In this document: positions 8,354 to 18,891 of the stretch, piece by piece
Numbering within the stretch: the stretch's first letter is position 1
How the letters are laid out: each line of letters opens with the position of its first letter
The notes under the pieces: model-generated
Database searches by the model: none
What the model was told of the DNA's origin: nothing
The model's input: the letters and a program-made list of their open reading frames with translations, nothing else
Position numbers and translations under genes: made by a program
NCBI GenBank assembly: GCA_036339585.1
Contig: JAYZAS010000013.1
Coordinates: 1 to 61,100, forward strand
Reading direction: 5' to 3'
From: Pseudomonadota bacterium
GTDB taxonomy: Bacteria; Pseudomonadota; Alphaproteobacteria; UBA8366
Length of the DNA stretch: 61,100 nucleotides

Positions 8354-9481
8354 TTATGGTTTGTAACTCCGTAATTCGTTCCACTGGTCCGTAAAAGAGG
8401 AGGCCATAGCCGGACTTTTGATAACGATTACATTTTCATGGTTCCCCAAAACCGATTTGGTCACAAAGTTGTAACTCCCACTAACGACGTATAAATCATC
8501 AATCACCATAAATTTGTGATGCATGTGTGCCTTCTTCGAACCCATACGGACAGAGTGCACCGCAAGTTTTTTGTATTTCCTTTTTTTAGCCTTTTGGTAA
8601 TCGGTTATGACTTGCACCTCCACTCCTCGGTCAACGGCCTTTGCCAGGGCATCGTAAATTGGATTTGGATATTTTTTGGATCCAACACTTATGCTCCATA
8701 CAGCGACCAAAATTCTTTTTTGAGCTGCTGTAATTGATCGTTTTATTAGTTCCATTCCGGCGTCATTAAAACCAGCAGAAAAATATCCGTCTGCTACTTC
8801 AATCGAAAGACGCGCTGGTAAGCTATGGAAGACTTTTGAAAAGGCATTGGCAAGTTTTGTACTTTCAATATAGATCAAATTTTCGAAGTTGAGATCGGTA
8901 GCACGTTCAGTCCAATTGAAACTGCCTGTTAAAATGCCGTCACCCTGCTGACTTCGCAAAACGACAAATTTGTGATGCATCACAAACCACTTACGTTTCC
9001 GACTAGATTTATAAACACCAAGCATGATTGGCTCCACATTAGGAGTGTCATCAAAAACTTGAGAGCATTTGCCAGTACAATAATTACCGTCAAAAACGCC
9101 GGATGCACTGCGGTGTGATGTCAAACTTTTTACTATTTCTTCATGAGTTGGCTTATAGCTAGCCCATTCGATCGTTTGTGATAGCTCTATCCGCGATAAC
9201 AAAAGATCCTTCGGATCGGAGTCCGCTCCGGGTCGGTCGAAAGCCCAAGCGACGCGTCCAGCTAATGGACCTTTAGCGATTGCCCAAAAGGCGACCCCAT
9301 TATTAGAAAAACGTGTGGCTTTTTCGGTCGCGGCTATCGGATTACATGGAAGGCACCAAATTAGAAGTGTCGCTGTTGCAAGAAGGGTATAGGTTTTCAA
9401 CACATAAAAGAATGAAAATAAACACCGACACCTAGGGTAATTATATGGATTAATTTGGGTGTTTTGTTTGTTTGTTCGCAC
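8354..9481 (-). CDS. Exported phospholipase-D-like protein with one degenerate HKD motif
   Basis: Two PLD-like (HKD) half-domains after an N-terminal hydrophobic export segment (about residues 28-52). First half: HHKFVVL with H169 and K171, but the Asp expected at 176 is Arg, although GSFNWTERA downstream is intact. Second half: HHKFMVIDD with H321, K323 and D328, then SGSYNF. The fold pairs two halves into one active site, so activity may persist through the C-terminal motif or be altered. Relatives include secreted nucleases (Nuc) and phospholipases. The GTG at 9481 is taken as start; a second in-frame GTG at 9403 would place the signal peptide at the very N-terminus. Confidence 0.75.
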   Translation of the reverse strand: MRTNKQNTQINPYNYPRCRCLFSFFYVLKTYTLLATATLLIWCLPCNPIAATEKATRFSNNGVAFWAIAKGPLAGRVAWAFDRPGADSDPKDLLLSRIELSQTIEWASYKPTHEEIVKSLTSHRSASGVFDGNYCTGKCSQVFDDTPNVEPIMLGVYKSSRKRKWFVMHHKFVVLRSQQGDGILTGSFNWTERATDLNFENLIYIESTKLANAFSKVFHSLPARLSIEVADGYFSAGFNDAGMELIKRSITAAQKRILVAVWSISVGSKKYPNPIYDALAKAVDRGVEVQVITDYQKAKKRKYKKLAVHSVRMGSKKAHMHHKFMVIDDLYVVSGSYNFVTKSVLGNHENVIVIKSPAMASSFTDQWNELRSYKP

Positions 9482-9788
9482 GATATTTCTCGAATCTGCA
9501 TGGGGTCATGAACAGGGACACAAGGTAACATGCAATTGTTTGTAATACTCCAATGATTCGCGAACGGGATAGTTTGTTAATAATTGCAGAGATGAGGCAA
9601 ATTCGGTTCTGTTGTCTATTATTAAAAATATTTTGTCAAAAAATGATGTGGATGTTCGTTTAAAGGATCAAATACCCTTTAAATGATTCTCTGACATCTA
9701 CTTTTTTATTTTAAATATCCGGAAAATTTCTCTGTGACGAGTGGTCTAAAATGAAGTAAGGAAAGCGTAACAGGGTAGGAGTGTTACA
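9482..9788. other. Divergent intergenic region upstream of the thioredoxin-like gene
   Basis: About 300 AT-rich bases between the PLD-like gene (minus) and the thioredoxin-like gene (plus). Both promoters should be here. No gene, hairpin or known operator could be supported. Confidence 0.4.
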
Positions 9789-10199
9789 ATGATCAAACAT
9801 TATTTTAAAATCGCGACTTTATTTCTTTTACTATTAGGTGGTCCTTCTGTAGTGCAAGCAGAAACTGACTGGATAGTTTATAAGCCTGGCGTTGTTGAAG
9901 CAGCTGTATCTAAAGGGGATAGTGTTCTTCTTGGTTATCTATCTACTTGGTGAGGAACCTGCGCGCAGCAAAAAAGCGCACTAATGGAGCTCCGTGAGAG
10001 CCATCCGGAATATAATAAGTCTATAAAATTTGTTCTCATCGACTGGGATGATTACGGTTCACACTCTGTTACGACCAGTCGTGATATCCCTCGACGGTCC
10101 ACCCTTGTCTTAATAAGAGATAGGAAAGAAATCGGTCGTCTGGTTGCGGAGACCAGTGTTGAAAAAATAAAACTGCTTTTAGACAAAGGCTTAAAATAG
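9789..10199 (+). CDS. Exported thioredoxin-fold protein, candidate selenoprotein (UGTC active site)
   Basis: Reading through one TGA (9951-9953) gives a 136-residue thioredoxin-family protein: signal peptide 1-24 (MIKHYFKIATLFLLLLGG, cut after VVQA), then LSTW-U55-GT-C58-AQQK, where thioredoxins have W-C-x-x-C. The 78 codons after the TGA keep the fold: KFVLIDWDDYG (central strand), IPRRSTLVLIRD (strand after the usual cis-Pro loop; Ser104 sits where Pro is typical), then KEIGRLVAETS and a C-terminal helix. TAGGAG lies about 9 bases before the ATG, and TAG closes the frame. The only lesion is the catalytic Cys codon itself, so selenocysteine is the best reading. A single-base TGC/TGT-to-TGA mutation or sequencing error is the alternative. 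Likely a periplasmic redox protein. Confidence 0.7.
9951..9993 (+). promoter_or_regulatory. In-frame UGA and SECIS-like stem-loop
   Basis: Directly 3' of the UGA (9951-9953), TGCGC (9960-9964) can pair with GCGCA (9976-9980), leaving an 11-base loop that begins with G. An alternative register pairs GCGC 9963-9966 with 9976-9979. An outer GGA (9954-9956) can pair with TCC (9991-9993). Bacterial SECIS elements are hairpins immediately after the UGA, with an upper stem and a G near the start of the apical loop, so this is compatible. The loop is somewhat close to the UGA compared with the usual spacing. I could not compute folding energies. Confidence 0.45.
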
Positions 10200-10239
10200 G
10201 GGTTTTTTATATTCCGCTGTCGTAAATACTGTTAATTTT

Positions 10240-10623
10240 TTAACACCCTTTGTATTGTTTTTTAACGCACTCGCGAGCAAGCTCTTGTGCTTTTTCAAGT
10301 TGGGACGCAGTCATCCTTTTGGCGATTACGTCCCTGTTTGCGGTTGCGTTTTTGTGTCCTGACGACGCGGCTATATTTGACCATAAATGTGCATACACAT
10401 GGTCCTGTATAATGCCGTGTCCCAATGCATACATAAGACTGAGATTATATTGTGCAGAAACGTGACCCTTCTCAGCCAGCGGTTTCCATTCCTGTAGGGC
10501 AATCGCATAATTCCCTGCTTTATAGGCCGCAACGCCCTTAAAAAAGTCGCCACTCCAACCCGTACTCGCGCTTGAAAGAAACACGGTTATAGTGAAGCAG
10601 AGTGTTGTGAATATTTTATTCAT
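10240..10623 (-). CDS. Secreted Sel1-repeat protein (short paralogue)
   Basis: A 127-residue exported protein: signal peptide 1-24 (MNKIFTTLCFTITVFLSSAS, ending WSG), one clear Sel1 repeat (AALQ-type helix pair, EWKPLAEKGHVSAQYNLSLMY), then a partial repeat with AHLWSNIAASSGH and a C-terminal helix ending AQELARECVKKQYKGC. The end closely matches the middle of the next gene (ELAQECVHKRLRGC), so the two are tandem paralogues about 70 bases apart. Probably a scaffold protein in the periplasm. Confidence 0.75.
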   Translation of the reverse strand: MNKIFTTLCFTITVFLSSASTGWSGDFFKGVAAYKAGNYAIALQEWKPLAEKGHVSAQYNLSLMYALGHGIIQDHVYAHLWSNIAASSGHKNATANRDVIAKRMTASQLEKAQELARECVKKQYKGC

Positions 10624-10692: not shown

Positions 10693-11613
10693 TCACTTAG
10701 CGTTATCACCGACTAACCAATATTCTTCTGAAAACCCTATTCGGTAGGCCTGCCTACTTTTCCAAGTGCCAGAATCTGCTCCATGCCAGTCAACACATAC
10801 CAAACCAGGCCACCTCAATTGATTTTTGTCTCCGTTATACCTCCCATATAATTTACCATTCATGTCAGACCAAGACCGCACTGTTCCAAATTGCTTGGTT
10901 GGTGGATGGATTTCTTTGTCGCCCCAAGCCTCATTCCAATTTGGGTTTTTAAAAACATACATACCTTCATAGATATTTCGGGTGGTGAGAAGTACAAAAT
11001 CGGACTGCTTAGCGCAACCTCTGAGCCTTTTGTGCACGCATTCCTGCGCTAATTCTTTGGCAGATGCGAGATCTGCCGGGGTCAGATATTTTTCAAGAAG
11101 ATCTCTGTTTGCAGCAGCATTTTTATTTCCGTTTAGTGCAGCTAAATTCCACCACATATGGGCATAAATATAGTTTTTAGGAATGCCTTTCCCTTTTGCG
11201 TAAGCGTGCCCAAGATTATACTGAGACGGGACATATCCCTGTTGAGCCGCGAGTTGAAACCATTTAAATGAAGCCACCAAATTCTGTGTTTCAGCATTAC
11301 CGGTTGAGATCATTACACCAAGGTTATGCTGCGCGTTAGCATTTCCTTGTTTAGCAGCGAGCTCATACCACTTTCTTGCAGCTTTAAGGTCCTGTGGAAC
11401 ACCCAGCGCCCGTCTATACATTTGGCCAAGATTATACTGGGAAGGAGCGTGCCCCTGTTCGGCAAGCGGTTCCCATAATTCGAATGCAGTTTTGTAATCA
11501 CCGACGCCGTAAGCGGTTAAAGCTTTTTCGAAGTCATTACTCCAACACGCATTGTCGGTGCCAAAAAGTAGAAATATTACCACAGAGATTATTTTGGTTA
11601 ATTTTTTGAACAC
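10693..11613 (-). CDS. Secreted Sel1-repeat protein with extra C-terminal domain
   Basis: A 306-residue exported protein starting with GTG (AGG a few bases upstream) and a signal peptide of about 25 residues. Four Sel1 repeats span about residues 30-190 (repeated pattern WxPLAEQGHAPSQYNLG, YELAAKQGNANAQHNLG, FQLAAQQGYVPSQYNLG). The last 100 residues form a separate, aromatic-rich domain (for example NPNWNEAWGDKEIHPP and GLVCVDWHGADSGTW) absent from the shorter paralogues. That domain is not recognised and may give a binding function. Confidence 0.8.
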   Translation of the reverse strand: MFKKLTKIISVVIFLLFGTDNACWSNDFEKALTAYGVGDYKTAFELWEPLAEQGHAPSQYNLGQMYRRALGVPQDLKAARKWYELAAKQGNANAQHNLGVMISTGNAETQNLVASFKWFQLAAQQGYVPSQYNLGHAYAKGKGIPKNYIYAHMWWNLAALNGNKNAAANRDLLEKYLTPADLASAKELAQECVHKRLRGCAKQSDFVLLTTRNIYEGMYVFKNPNWNEAWGDKEIHPPTKQFGTVRSWSDMNGKLYGRYNGDKNQLRWPGLVCVDWHGADSGTWKSRQAYRIGFSEEYWLVGDNAK

Positions 11614-15410: not shown

Positions 15411-16853
15411 ATGATGAATCATTTTCCTATTTTCATTAACATGCACGAAAAATTAGTGATTGTGTCAGGGGTCGGGGAAACGGCAGTTGCAAAACTTCGG
15501 CTTTTATTGAAAACGCCCGCGCATATCAAGGTTTTTGGCTCTGAACCGACCGCAGATATTGAGGCCTGGGCTTCAATCGGGAAACTAGATTTGGTCCGCC
15601 GATCAGTTGCAACGCCAGACGTCATTGGTGCGCAACTCGTTTACGCGGCGAATGACGATCATATCGAAGATAGACGGGTAGCTGACATAAGCAAACAACA
15701 AAACGTTTTGTGCAATGTGGTGGACAATATTAAAGACAGTGTTTTCATAACGCCAGCAATTGTCGATAGAAGTCCTGTCGTAGTAGCAATAGGAACAGAA
15801 GGGTCTGCTCCCATGCTTGCACGTAAAATCAAAGCTTCTGTCGAACAACTTTTACCGGTGTCCACAGGTTTACTAGCGAGTATTGCGAGGTCTTTTCGCG
15901 GTGCTGTAGCCGAAATCTCTTGCGCTCGCGCTCGCAGAAGTTTTTGGTCCGAATTCTTTGACAAAACTGGTCCAACTGCTTTTTCAAATGGTGGCACGAG
16001 TGCTGTTAAAACCGCAATAGACGAAATGCTGAATAAGGCTAAACATTCAGAGGGTTCAGGTAGCAAAAGCACTGGCGCGGTTTGGCTCGTTGGGGCGGGG
16101 CCAGGAGATCCAGAACTACTAACACAGAGGGCGGTTCAGCTTCTGGACAAAGCCGATATCGTGGTTGCCGACCGTTTGGTAAGCGTTGAAATATTAGAGC
16201 TTATTCGGCGGGAAGCAAAGCTTGTTAAAGTTGGTAAGGTACCGGGGGGGCCAAGTTGGGCTCAAGAAGATATAAATAAGCTTATCATTGCTCACGCAAA
16301 CAGTGGGGAAATAGTTGTGCGCCTTAAATCAGGTGATCCCGCTATTTATGGGCGTCTTGATGAGGAAATGGACGCACTAGATTTAGCAGGGGTGCCATAT
16401 CGGATCGTACCCGGCATAACATCTGCGTTGGCTGCTTCAGCACAAAATAAGGTGTCATTGACACGTAGGGGCAGGAACTCCGATTTCAGGTTTTTAACCG
16501 GGCAAGATATAGATGGCTTCGCTGAGCATGATTGGCATGCTTTAGCCAAGAGCAATGTCGTAGCGTCAATATATATGGGAGTAAGATCAGCCAGGTTCTT
16601 GCAGGGCCGCCTTCTCATGCATGGTGCCGATCCTATGACCCCATTGATCGTCACTGAAAATATATCACGCGTAAATGAGAAAATTATCGCAACAACCCTT
16701 GGGGAACTATCTGAGGAAATTGTCAGAAATAAAATCACGGGCCCTAGCATTATTACTATTGGTGTTGAGCCGAGACCTAACAAGTCTTACGCAGTTCAGG
16801 ACAAGAAAATCCCGAACAGCGCAACGCAACTGTCTTTCGGGGCCGGTGGGTAA
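15411..16853 (+). CDS. cysG: Siroheme synthase (fused dehydrogenase/ferrochelatase and uroporphyrinogen-III methyltransferase)
   Basis: 480-residue multifunctional enzyme making siroheme from uroporphyrinogen III. N-terminal third: NAD-binding precorrin-2 dehydrogenase/ferrochelatase (VSGVGETAVAKLRLL; AANDDHIEDRRV; SVFITPAIVDRSPVVVAIGT). From about residue 224: SUMT domain with VGAGPGDPELLTQRA, VVADRLVS, VRLKSGDPAIYGR, and PGITSALAA. It supplies the cofactor for the sulfite reductase three genes on. First gene of the operon, 3 bases before the DUF2849 gene. Length and domain order match the family. Confidence 0.93.
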   Translation: MMNHFPIFINMHEKLVIVSGVGETAVAKLRLLLKTPAHIKVFGSEPTADIEAWASIGKLDLVRRSVATPDVIGAQLVYAANDDHIEDRRVADISKQQNVLCNVVDNIKDSVFITPAIVDRSPVVVAIGTEGSAPMLARKIKASVEQLLPVSTGLLASIARSFRGAVAEISCARARRSFWSEFFDKTGPTAFSNGGTSAVKTAIDEMLNKAKHSEGSGSKSTGAVWLVGAGPGDPELLTQRAVQLLDKADIVVADRLVSVEILELIRREAKLVKVGKVPGGPSWAQEDINKLIIAHANSGEIVVRLKSGDPAIYGRLDEEMDALDLAGVPYRIVPGITSALAASAQNKVSLTRRGRNSDFRFLTGQDIDGFAEHDWHALAKSNVVASIYMGVRSARFLQGRLLMHGADPMTPLIVTENISRVNEKIIATTLGELSEEIVRNKITGPSIITIGVEPRPNKSYAVQDKKIPNSATQLSFGAGG

Positions 16854-16856
16854 GAA

Positions 16857-17204
16857 ATGGAAAAATATGACGCTCATATCGTGACTGCCAATGATTTAAG
16901 GCATGGTAATGTGGTCTATTTAAATGCCTCCGGAGAGTGGACAGGAAATCTAGCAGACGCGGCAGTTGTGTCGGGCGATGTCGATGATAGAGCCATCTCT
17001 GAAGAAATGCAGGTGCAGCGGAATTTGGTGGTAGATCCTTATCTTTTAGAGGTGTCTGTAGAGAACGGCACCCTGACGCCAAAGAAACTGCGCGAACGCT
17101 TGCGAGCCCAAGGTCCTTCTATTCAATTTGATATGTCGCCCAAAAAACAGTTCGTGCAATCCCGTACGCATTATTCAGTGCATGATTTGAGTGAGAAGGA
17201 ATAG
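16857..17204 (+). CDS. DUF2849 protein of the sulfite-reductase operon
   Basis: 115-residue protein matching DUF2849, a small family found almost only between cysG and the sulfite reductase gene in Alphaproteobacteria. Typical features: IVTANDLRHGNVVYLNASGEW near the N-terminus (read as ANDLRHGNVVYL and a following GEW), AVVSGDVDDRAI, VVDPYLLEV, and a C-terminal LRERLRAQGPSI. Function unknown; the strict gene context suggests help with sulfite reductase assembly or regulation. Confidence 0.85.
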   Translation: MEKYDAHIVTANDLRHGNVVYLNASGEWTGNLADAAVVSGDVDDRAISEEMQVQRNLVVDPYLLEVSVENGTLTPKKLRERLRAQGPSIQFDMSPKKQFVQSRTHYSVHDLSEKE

Positions 17205-17208
17205 GTCG

Positions 17209-18891
17209 TTGTATCGGTATGACGAATTTGATGAAGCATTTGTTCGCGATCGTGTTCACCGCTTTAGATCTCAGGTTGATAGGCGAATAACAGGACACCT
17301 TACCGAAGATGAATTTAAACCTTTAAGGCTTCAAAACGGCCTTTATTTGCAATTGCACGCTTACATGCTGAGAGTTGCAATCCCTTACGGGACACTCAAT
17401 GGTCGACAACTTCGTCAGCTTGCCATGGTTTCTGAACGTTGGGATAAGGGATACGGCCATTTTACGACCCGACAGAACATTCAGTTTAATTGGCTTAAGC
17501 TTCGTGATGTTGGAGATGTTTTAGAGGCATTGGCAGATGTGGGCATGCACGCGATACAAACGTCCGGTAATTGTATCCGTAATATAACGGCAGATCACTT
17601 CGCCGGTGCTTCCTGCGACGAGATTGAGGATCCGAGACCAACTGCAGAAATTCTTCGGCAATGGTCAACAGACCATCCCGAATTTGCATTTCTACCTCGA
17701 AAATTCAAAATAGCAGTAACAGGTTCGCCATTCGATCGTGCAGTTACAAAAGCACATGACATTGGTCTTCGGATGGTAAGAGATAGCGGCGGTCGGCCTG
17801 GATATGAGGTTACCGTTGGAGGAGGGTTGGGACGAACACCTATGGTCGGCAGGGTTGTCAGAGAATTCCTGCCAAAGGAGAATCTTTTAAGCTACGTAGA
17901 AGCTATAATGCGTGTTTATAATTTAAACGGACGTCGGGATAATAAATACAAAGCGCGGATAAAGATTCTAATTCATGAAACCGGCTTTGACTCATTCGTT
18001 GAGTCTGTTGAGAGAGAGTTCAAGGCCATCTCGTCGAGTGAAAATAGAGATTTGGCACAAATTGATCCTGAGGTGTTACATCGTATTGAGCAGTATTTTC
18101 AGCAACCTGATTTTACACCAGACCACGAAGGTGGAGGGGACTTCGAAAAACGTTTTGAAGTGGATAAGGATTTCCAGACCTGGGTTAAACAGAACTTGGA
18201 GGAACATCGTCAGCCCGGTTATAAAATAGTAACTATTTCGCTTAAGCCAATTGGAGGAATACCCGGAGACGCATCTGCGGAGCAAATGCGCGTTATTGCT
18301 GATTTAGCAGAACGGTTGGCACATGATGAGATAAGAATTAGTCATGAGCAAAATGTTGTTTTGCCTCATGTCCCAAAACAAAACCTGCCCGAGTTATATG
18401 ACGGGCTGCGGGTGGCCGGATTGGCTACAGCAAATATAGGTTTAATTAGTGACATTATTGCTTGTCCGGGAATGGACTATTGCTCATTAGCTACTGCCCG
18501 ATCCATACCTGTCGCGCAGGATATTGCAAACCACTTTTCAGATTCTGAGTATGCCAGAACTATTGGCGAAATGAAGATTAAAATTTCCGGTTGCATTAAT
18601 GCGTGCGGGCATCACCATGTTGGTCACATCGGTATACTAGGTTTAGATAAAAGAGGCGTCGAAAATTACCAAATTACACTGGGTGGCGATCATACAGAAA
18701 ACCTCTCGCTTGGTGACAGGATAGGCCCCGGTTTTGGCCGCGAGGAAATAGTCCCTGCTCTACAAAGGCTTATTGACGAGTATCTTGCAGTGCGTGTCGG
18801 TTCAAAAGAAACATTTCTTATGGCTTATAAACGTTTAGGTTTAGAACCGTTTAAGGCAGCCATCTACAGGAAGGATGCGACTGTAAGCTAA
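17209..18891 (+). CDS. cysI: Ferredoxin-type nitrite/sulfite reductase (siroheme, 4Fe-4S)
   Basis: 560-residue siroheme/[4Fe-4S] enzyme reducing sulfite to sulfide for cysteine synthesis. Visible: N-terminal LRLQNGLYLQLHAYMLRVAI, GHFTTRQNIQFNWL, and the four cluster ligands C419/C425 (CPGMDYC) and C462/C466 (GCINACGHHHVGHIG). Start TTG 17209 has AAGGA eight bases upstream and gives the usual YRYDEFDEAF terminus; a GTG 18 bases earlier would overlap the preceding gene. No PAPS reductase (cysH) follows, which is unusual for this operon. A nitrite reductase role is unlikely given the context. Confidence 0.92.
   Translation: MYRYDEFDEAFVRDRVHRFRSQVDRRITGHLTEDEFKPLRLQNGLYLQLHAYMLRVAIPYGTLNGRQLRQLAMVSERWDKGYGHFTTRQNIQFNWLKLRDVGDVLEALADVGMHAIQTSGNCIRNITADHFAGASCDEIEDPRPTAEILRQWSTDHPEFAFLPRKFKIAVTGSPFDRAVTKAHDIGLRMVRDSGGRPGYEVTVGGGLGRTPMVGRVVREFLPKENLLSYVEAIMRVYNLNGRRDNKYKARIKILIHETGFDSFVESVEREFKAISSSENRDLAQIDPEVLHRIEQYFQQPDFTPDHEGGGDFEKRFEVDKDFQTWVKQNLEEHRQPGYKIVTISLKPIGGIPGDASAEQMRVIADLAERLAHDEIRISHEQNVVLPHVPKQNLPELYDGLRVAGLATANIGLISDIIACPGMDYCSLATARSIPVAQDIANHFSDSEYARTIGEMKIKISGCINACGHHHVGHIGILGLDKRGVENYQITLGGDHTENLSLGDRIGPGFGREEIVPALQRLIDEYLAVRVGSKETFLMAYKRLGLEPFKAAIYRKDATVS

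Follow-up and report, generated by a model that had tools for sequence, protein, structure and literature searches.

The window, that is, the whole stretch of 61,100 nucleotides analyzed here, from an uncultured alphaproteobacterium, contains a reading frame that starts with the ATG at 9789, ends with the TAG at 10197-10199 and includes a single in-frame TGA, codon 55 (9951-9953), where the translation reads W-U-G-T-C if the TGA is taken to encode selenocysteine (Sec, U). An earlier note on this DNA, prepared from the sequence alone, had claimed that this lone TGA replaces the first Cys of the thioredoxin WCxxC motif, and the reading frame 9789-10199 bears this out; the number of codons past the TGA, given there as 78, is wrong, there being 81 sense codons (codons 56-136). 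The upstream signal peptide noted at the same time is likewise recognizable, residues 1-24 being, as judged by eye, signal-peptide-like and ending VQA/E. The putative selenothioredoxin gene and its surroundings include the following features:

8354-9481, minus strand: PLD-like gene, the upstream neighbor of the selenothioredoxin gene
9777..9781, plus strand: Shine-Dalgarno-like AGGAG, 7 nt ahead of the ATG at 9789 (sequence reading)
9789..10199, plus strand: putative selenoprotein gene, secreted UxxC thioredoxin-like, 136 residues, the sole plus-strand gene amid minus-strand genes
9789..9860, plus strand: signal-peptide-like N-terminus, residues 1-24 (translation read by eye; a low-confidence stretch of the AlphaFold model)
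9951..9953, plus strand: TGA, codon 55, predicted to specify the selenocysteine that opens UGTC (15 genomes share the TGA; 25 aligned homologues encode Cys)
9960..9962, plus strand: TGC, Cys58, predicted resolving Cys of UxxC (invariant across 40 aligned rows)
10098..10100, plus strand: TCC, Ser104, at the thioredoxin cis-proline position (column: Ser 32, Ala 6, Thr 2 in 40 rows)
10693-11613, minus strand: Sel1-repeat gene (Pfam Sel1), past a short Sel1-like frame downstream of the selenothioredoxin gene

A scan of the window for frames that contain exactly one TGA and barely overlap long ORFs listed five, the selenothioredoxin frame among them; to the eye, the other four look like short ORF extensions or a non-coding strand. 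Promoter- and terminator-like sites around the gene score within about one standard deviation of shuffled sequences. Sel1-like proteins with signal-peptide-like starts are encoded near the gene, all on the minus strand (1370-1927, 10240-10623 and 10693-11613, of which the Pfam Sel1 check covered the last), and also upstream of the selenothioredoxin gene in genome G005 (L023:2713-5384). Farther along the window, 15411-18891 appears, by eye, to hold a gene resembling siroheme synthase and, after it, one resembling a nitrite/sulfite reductase.

The read-through product matches the thioredoxin family PF00085 with 30.6 bits (gathering cut-off 23.5), whereas its score against the TrxA equivalog TIGR01068, 28.9 bits, is below the curated cut-off of 96.8. 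The label "thioredoxin" used in the earlier note is therefore valid in the sense of PF00085 membership and invalid in the sense of TrxA identity; judging from these scores, the predicted product is a secreted thioredoxin-like protein and no orthologue of the cytosolic TrxA. The AlphaFold model of the read-through product (pLDDT 88.7) best matches, among solved structures, 5zf2 (Z 17.4, rmsd 1.5 over 103 residues), the match spanning residues 27-133. The thioredoxin order of strands and helices that had been proposed for the part past the TGA agrees with the PF00085 match and with a modeled fold that matches solved thioredoxins. The cis-proline before the fourth strand is absent in all 40 aligned rows, with QST, RST, QAT and similar motifs in its stead; from matching by eye, we take the Ser104 column to be that of cis-Pro76 of E. 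coli Trx. To our knowledge, this proline is nearly universal among thioredoxins.

A search of 59 genomes, that of the window included, revealed that three relatives from the same family (hereinafter f1) also carry TGA at this codon, one of the same genus (71% identity) and two of another genus (63%); a fifth match is distant and stop-free. When 385 genomes of the class were searched with a profile, 32 gave matches, with TGA in the source genome and four more, the latter from two other families. Within family f71, 8 of the 15 genomes searched contain matches, each with the TGA, and among 15 genomes of the order that contains family f151, three of the 11 matches carry it. Altogether, the UGA form is present in 15 genomes of three families (4 in f1, 8 in f71 and 3 in f151), and the 14 other members are 37-71% identical to the window protein. 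A scan of genome contigs found three relatives, apparently the f1 members G002, G005 and G009 themselves, with search patterns that spelled the active site with Cys and so could miss UGA members elsewhere; the scan of viral contigs for relatives found none, and the search of 11 genomes from the order of G158, which encodes a Cys form, returned only two already known Cys forms.

In the column of codon 55, which the earlier note had singled out for comparison, the aligned homologues have Sec (UGA) in 15 cases, Cys in 25 and no other residue. The alignment consists of 40 rows, the 15 UGA sequences and 25 stop-free ones taken from the 29 stop-free match rows of the class-wide profile search, with G302 and G175 (no loci) and the second copies in G120 and G404 omitted; further f82 loci from the search of the f151 order were likewise omitted. 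No second stop inside the match is listed in any match row of the 59-genome, class-wide, f71 and f151-order searches. The coding sequence downstream of the UGA is subject to purifying selection: pN/pS is 0.25 for G000-G002 and 0.08 for G005-G009, both close pairs within f1, and 0.23, 0.35 and 0.26 for three further pairs. A sequencing error is very unlikely because the same TGA appears in separately deposited assemblies (three of them named).

The source genome (2.79 Mb in 25 contigs, estimated to be 100% complete) encodes the machinery for Sec synthesis and insertion that the earlier note proposed to look for, namely, all four of selA, selB, selC and selD. The selA gene scores 513.6 bits; a frame of 647 residues that starts 3 bases past selA is assigned to SelB by its position and by eye; the tRNA-Sec gene (selC) lies 181 bases past the selB frame (69.8 bits, gathering score 47); and selD (311.4 bits, cut-off 125) is part of a 766-residue frame, the N-terminal portion of which appears, by eye, oxidoreductase-like. 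About 2 kb past the tRNA-Sec gene, there is a second gene with a UGA, a member of the UGSC family (NF041046, 150 bits, cut-off 125), with an 8-bp hairpin, the loop of which is 18 nt past the UGA:

L015:9315-9863, contig C10 of the source genome, outside the window: UGSC-family selenoprotein gene, UGA at L015 9618

The UGSC-family gene of G002 likewise carries a UGA. Because both the thioredoxin and the UGSC genes contain UGA, Sec decoding would serve at least two genes in the source genome.

Full-length selA (>500 bits) was found in all 8 UGA genomes tested, as opposed to 4 of the 27 genomes whose matches are stop-free (without correction for kinship, Fisher p 2.1e-5); this test covered 8 of the 15 UGA genomes, the seven found later being left out. 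Any SelA-family match above the cut-off is present in 6 of the 27 Cys-type genomes, and the three closest of these (G158, G262 and G064) show no selA match. In G314 and G219, of family f60, there are five SelA-family matches each, one of them full length; the remainder may be other PLP enzymes. In f1, the selenothioredoxin gene was detected in 4 of the 11 genomes although 10 of the 11 searched, the source genome counted, encode SelA; either the gene is dispensable in f1 or it was partly missed by the search. In G001, a genome of the same genus that is 84% complete, selA is present and there is no selenothioredoxin match, through either loss or an assembly gap.

Formally, TGA is a stop codon, and a gene detected in just 4 of the 11 f1 members could be viewed as a pseudogene in which a nonsense mutation struck codon 55 by chance. 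This reading is untenable given the combination of a TGA shared by 15 genomes from three families, whose matches list no further stop, the alternation with Cys, the co-occurrence with selA and the low pN/pS past the TGA. We reject it in view of the conserved TGA and the conserved downstream protein and consider it exceedingly improbable. The same evidence, the recurrence of the TGA at this codon in 14 other genomes and purifying selection downstream, upholds the argument of the earlier note that a random nonsense hit is unlikely. The sequence alone cannot reveal which residue is inserted at the UGA, which might be read through as another residue, for example, by near-cognate decoding as Trp or Cys, or might terminate a product of 54 residues that has its own role. 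Such a product would have no active site and would leave the downstream protein unselected. Against another residue stand the presence of tRNA-Sec, SelA, SelB and SelD and the exact replacement of the redox Cys, the classic site of Sec; on these grounds, we reject read-through as another residue, and the whole group of explanations appears very unlikely, if less so than the pseudogene.

The bacterial SECIS model, as given in the available part of the publication (PMC13188914), calls for a loop of 3-9 nt, an upper stem of 4-16 bp, a G in the first two loop positions, a spacing of 16-37 nt and a minimum free energy of -7.5 kcal/mol or lower. Two hairpins downstream of the UGA come into consideration:

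9989..10001, plus strand: GCUC-CGUGA-GAGC hairpin, the best SECIS candidate, 39 nt from the UGA to the loop (RNAalifold on four f1 genomes, pairs invariant)
9960..9980, plus strand: alternative hairpin UGCGC-GCAGCAAAAAA-GCGCA, predicted in the window folds and nearer the UGA

The hairpin at 9989-10001 conforms to the model in its loop (5 nt), stem (4 bp) and the G at loop position 2; its spacing of 39 nt is just outside the published range, and the energy of the 33-nt window of the window gene is -7.1 kcal/mol against the limit of -7.5. When this 33-nt segment is folded by itself, the minimum-energy structure has a different pairing. The design GCUC-CGUG(A/C)-GAGC is found at +39 in all four f1 genomes, being the sole hairpin that passes the scan in all of them, and codons 67-69 and 71 are fixed in the four members. 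The stretch 9951-9995, where the earlier note proposed to look for the SECIS, cuts across this hairpin.

A possible 4-bp hairpin with the loop CGUGN follows each of the 15 UGAs, at +21 nt in the 11 members from f71 and f151 and at +39 nt in the four from f1, where it occupies a different place in the protein. In the 11 f71/f151 members, the codons around Q-I/V-R-x-I are fixed, GAUC/GAUC (or GGUC/GAUC) pairs flank CGUGN, and there is a short lower stem with a G-C to C-G swap in one member; loop, stem, G and the spacing of 21 nt are within the limits of the model in all 11, and the 33-nt energy of -7.5 is reached in two. Minimum-energy folds of the 33-nt windows contain the CGUGN loop in 10 of the 15 members, with G002 the only one among the four from f1. 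Synonymous redraws, run on 6 of the 15 UGA sequences, gave a 4-bp CGUGN hairpin in 1.2-3.5% of cases for three f1 sequences and in 5.8-8.1% for three f71/f151 sequences. The p values for codon fixation, 0.0005 (f71 and f151 combined) and 0.0069 (f1), are descriptive, the codons having been picked after the hairpins were seen. Covariation proper is weak in f71/f151, where the nine distinct hairpins include one double change and 71 of 500 shuffles do as well, and is not detected in the 3' hairpin of f1, the pairs in the RNAalifold structure being invariant among the four members; the support for the hairpins comes from the fixed codons and the shared loop. A search of Rfam with 9780-10210 detected no SECIS family among its three matches, all far below the gathering scores, and the 56 nt folded from just before the UGA are no more stable than shuffled sequences (z 0.19).

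The hairpin at 9960-9980 could itself be the SECIS of the f1 lineage, or the two hairpins could act together, the upstream one bringing the other effectively closer to the UGA. This hairpin appears in the window folds, is closer to the UGA, has a 4-bp core that RNAalifold draws for each of the four f1 members (one pair varies on one side) and forms a 6-bp version in G002; however, its loop and spacing, 11 nt each, fall outside the published limits, no hairpin passes the scan at this position in G005 or G009, and it has no counterpart in f71/f151, the members of which share the CGUGN design. We regard such a role for it as possible, at odds well short of even. The hairpin at 9989-10001 is the probable SECIS of f1, as suggested by the conserved loop and codons.

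The history of the Sec residue in this family was addressed by phylogenetic analysis. In the maximum-likelihood tree of the 40 rows, the Cys forms of families f120 and f26 fall between the UGA form of f1 and the other UGA forms; the grouping of f1, f120 and f26 is supported at 100/98, and the tree needs three changes between Sec and Cys, two of them forced by well-supported branches. Without four long rows, two changes are needed and one is forced. By the AU test, one clade of all Sec forms is not rejected (p 0.196 with all rows and 0.206 without the four long ones), and the tree is compatible with both gain and loss of Sec. We somewhat favor the scenario in which all UGA members inherited Sec from their common ancestor and Cys replaced it in f120 and f26, perhaps in lineages that lost selA. 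The AU result, the single forced change in the reduced tree and the lack of a selA match in the three nearest Cys genomes are in line with this scenario; the topology of the best tree, with its strongly supported placement of the f120/f26 Cys forms and three changes, and the different location of the hairpin in f1 speak against it. The shift of the hairpin favors regain of Sec in f1, which, overall, seems unlikely to us though not negligible. In its specific form, f1 would have regained Sec after reversion to Cys, with a new CGUG hairpin arising 18 nt further downstream, just outside the published spacing, and this version is slightly less plausible still. Were regain correct, the CGUG loop would be a motif favored by the SelBs of these bacteria in this family, reached twice independently.

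The genomic context suggests a function. Outside f1, 10 of the 11 UGA members adjoin a ccdA-like gene of the same orientation, as do 18 of the 25 Cys members; these neighbors were identified by a motif search in flanks of mostly 1.5 kb, and the Pfam check for DsbD_TM was positive in all five loci tested. No ccdA-like gene was found near the gene in the four f1 members within the flanks examined, which, for G002, comprised only 327 bases upstream. The window protein is homologous to proteins encoded beside ccdA, with 37-44% identity to the UGA members from f71/f151 and 49-51% to the Cys members from f120. The one DsbD_TM match in the source genome is a DsbD of 699 residues, with DsbD_N and a C-terminal thioredoxin domain (WCVTC). 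CcdA and DsbD proteins pass electrons through the inner membrane to thioredoxin-like proteins of the periplasm. Given this role and the CcdA-like neighbors in the relatives, the likely job of the protein is thiol reduction outside the cytoplasm.

Taken as a whole, these observations lead us to propose, with a probability of roughly 0.94, that the locus is a functional selenoprotein gene in which UGA is read as Sec55 and which encodes an exported protein with the thioredoxin fold acting as a periplasmic thiol reductase. The UGA at 9951-9953 would be decoded by the organism's own SelA, SelB, tRNA-Sec and SelD, as the comparative evidence suggests, with insertion directed by a small downstream hairpin, for which 9989-10001 is the best candidate. 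The product, with its signal peptide, would be exported and fold as a thioredoxin; Sec55 would be the nucleophile that attacks the oxidized substrate, and Cys58 would resolve the mixed selenosulfide. A periplasmic thiol reductase appears to be the most likely role. For the related families, the CcdA-like membrane protein of the adjacent gene would serve as reductant. The gene stands alone in the lineage of the window, and the likely donor there, although a guess, is the full-length DsbD, the only DsbD-type membrane protein detected in the genome. The periplasmic selenoprotein envisaged in the earlier note is thus supported by selABCD, the UGA-or-Cys column and the conserved hairpin design, which misses two of the published limits.

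Sec-containing thioredoxins are already known, and the window gene adds a well-supported further example. In the available parts of two publications (PMC13188914, PMC9312934), a Sec-containing thioredoxin family (PF00085, UxxC) is listed as experimentally verified. As described there, these bacterial proteins share with the window protein the thioredoxin fold and a CxxC motif with its first Cys replaced by Sec; the window protein differs, by description, in its signal peptide, the missing cis-proline, the ccdA neighbor in most relatives and the poor TrxA score. Marine surveys of the Sargasso Sea and the Global Ocean Sampling (GOS) reported, in the portions available, thioredoxin-like and thiol:disulfide interchange selenoproteins with UxxC (PMC1088965, PMC2398784), including, for Trx-like 1 in GOS, 321 selenoprotein sequences and 7,880 Cys homologues; to judge from the descriptions, the marine Trx-like selenoproteins resemble the window protein in the UxxC motif and may include its family. 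Among proteins with solved structures, 5zpv (named Thioredoxin H-type) is a profile match (E 1.2e-34), with WCPVC and QQST in the aligned stretch and, likewise, no cis-proline, and the fold match 5zf2, Trxlp of Edwardsiella tarda, has Cys where the window protein has Sec. Both appear to represent a CcdA-linked class of secreted Cys thioredoxins that lack about four extra residues of the clade of the window protein. The UGSC family, to which the second UGA gene of the same genome belongs, is unrelated to thioredoxin. A literature search on selenoprotein thioredoxins with CcdA, periplasm, Alphaproteobacteria and Rhodospirillales returned no title on this family, which does not prove its absence from print. 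The family is set apart by its secreted form with the CcdA link in relatives, by the lack of the cis-proline and by a single hairpin design that occurs at two places.

The change from Cys to Sec and the reverse are a described process (PMC1794560, available part), and the same 2006 survey, in that part, gives FdhA as the sole selenoprotein known in Sec-decoding Alphaproteobacteria; the source genome, with its thioredoxin and UGSC selenoprotein genes, departs from this FdhA-only picture. What a standard annotation pipeline would probably report as a truncated gene encodes a predicted exported selenoenzyme, of which 15 members were found, spread over three families of one class. The Sec and Cys forms track selA, and the hairpin design recurs at two positions. 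The family offers a natural test of the maximum distance between the SECIS and the UGA, as well as of the advantage of Sec over Cys where CcdA or DsbD drives reduction outside the cytoplasm.
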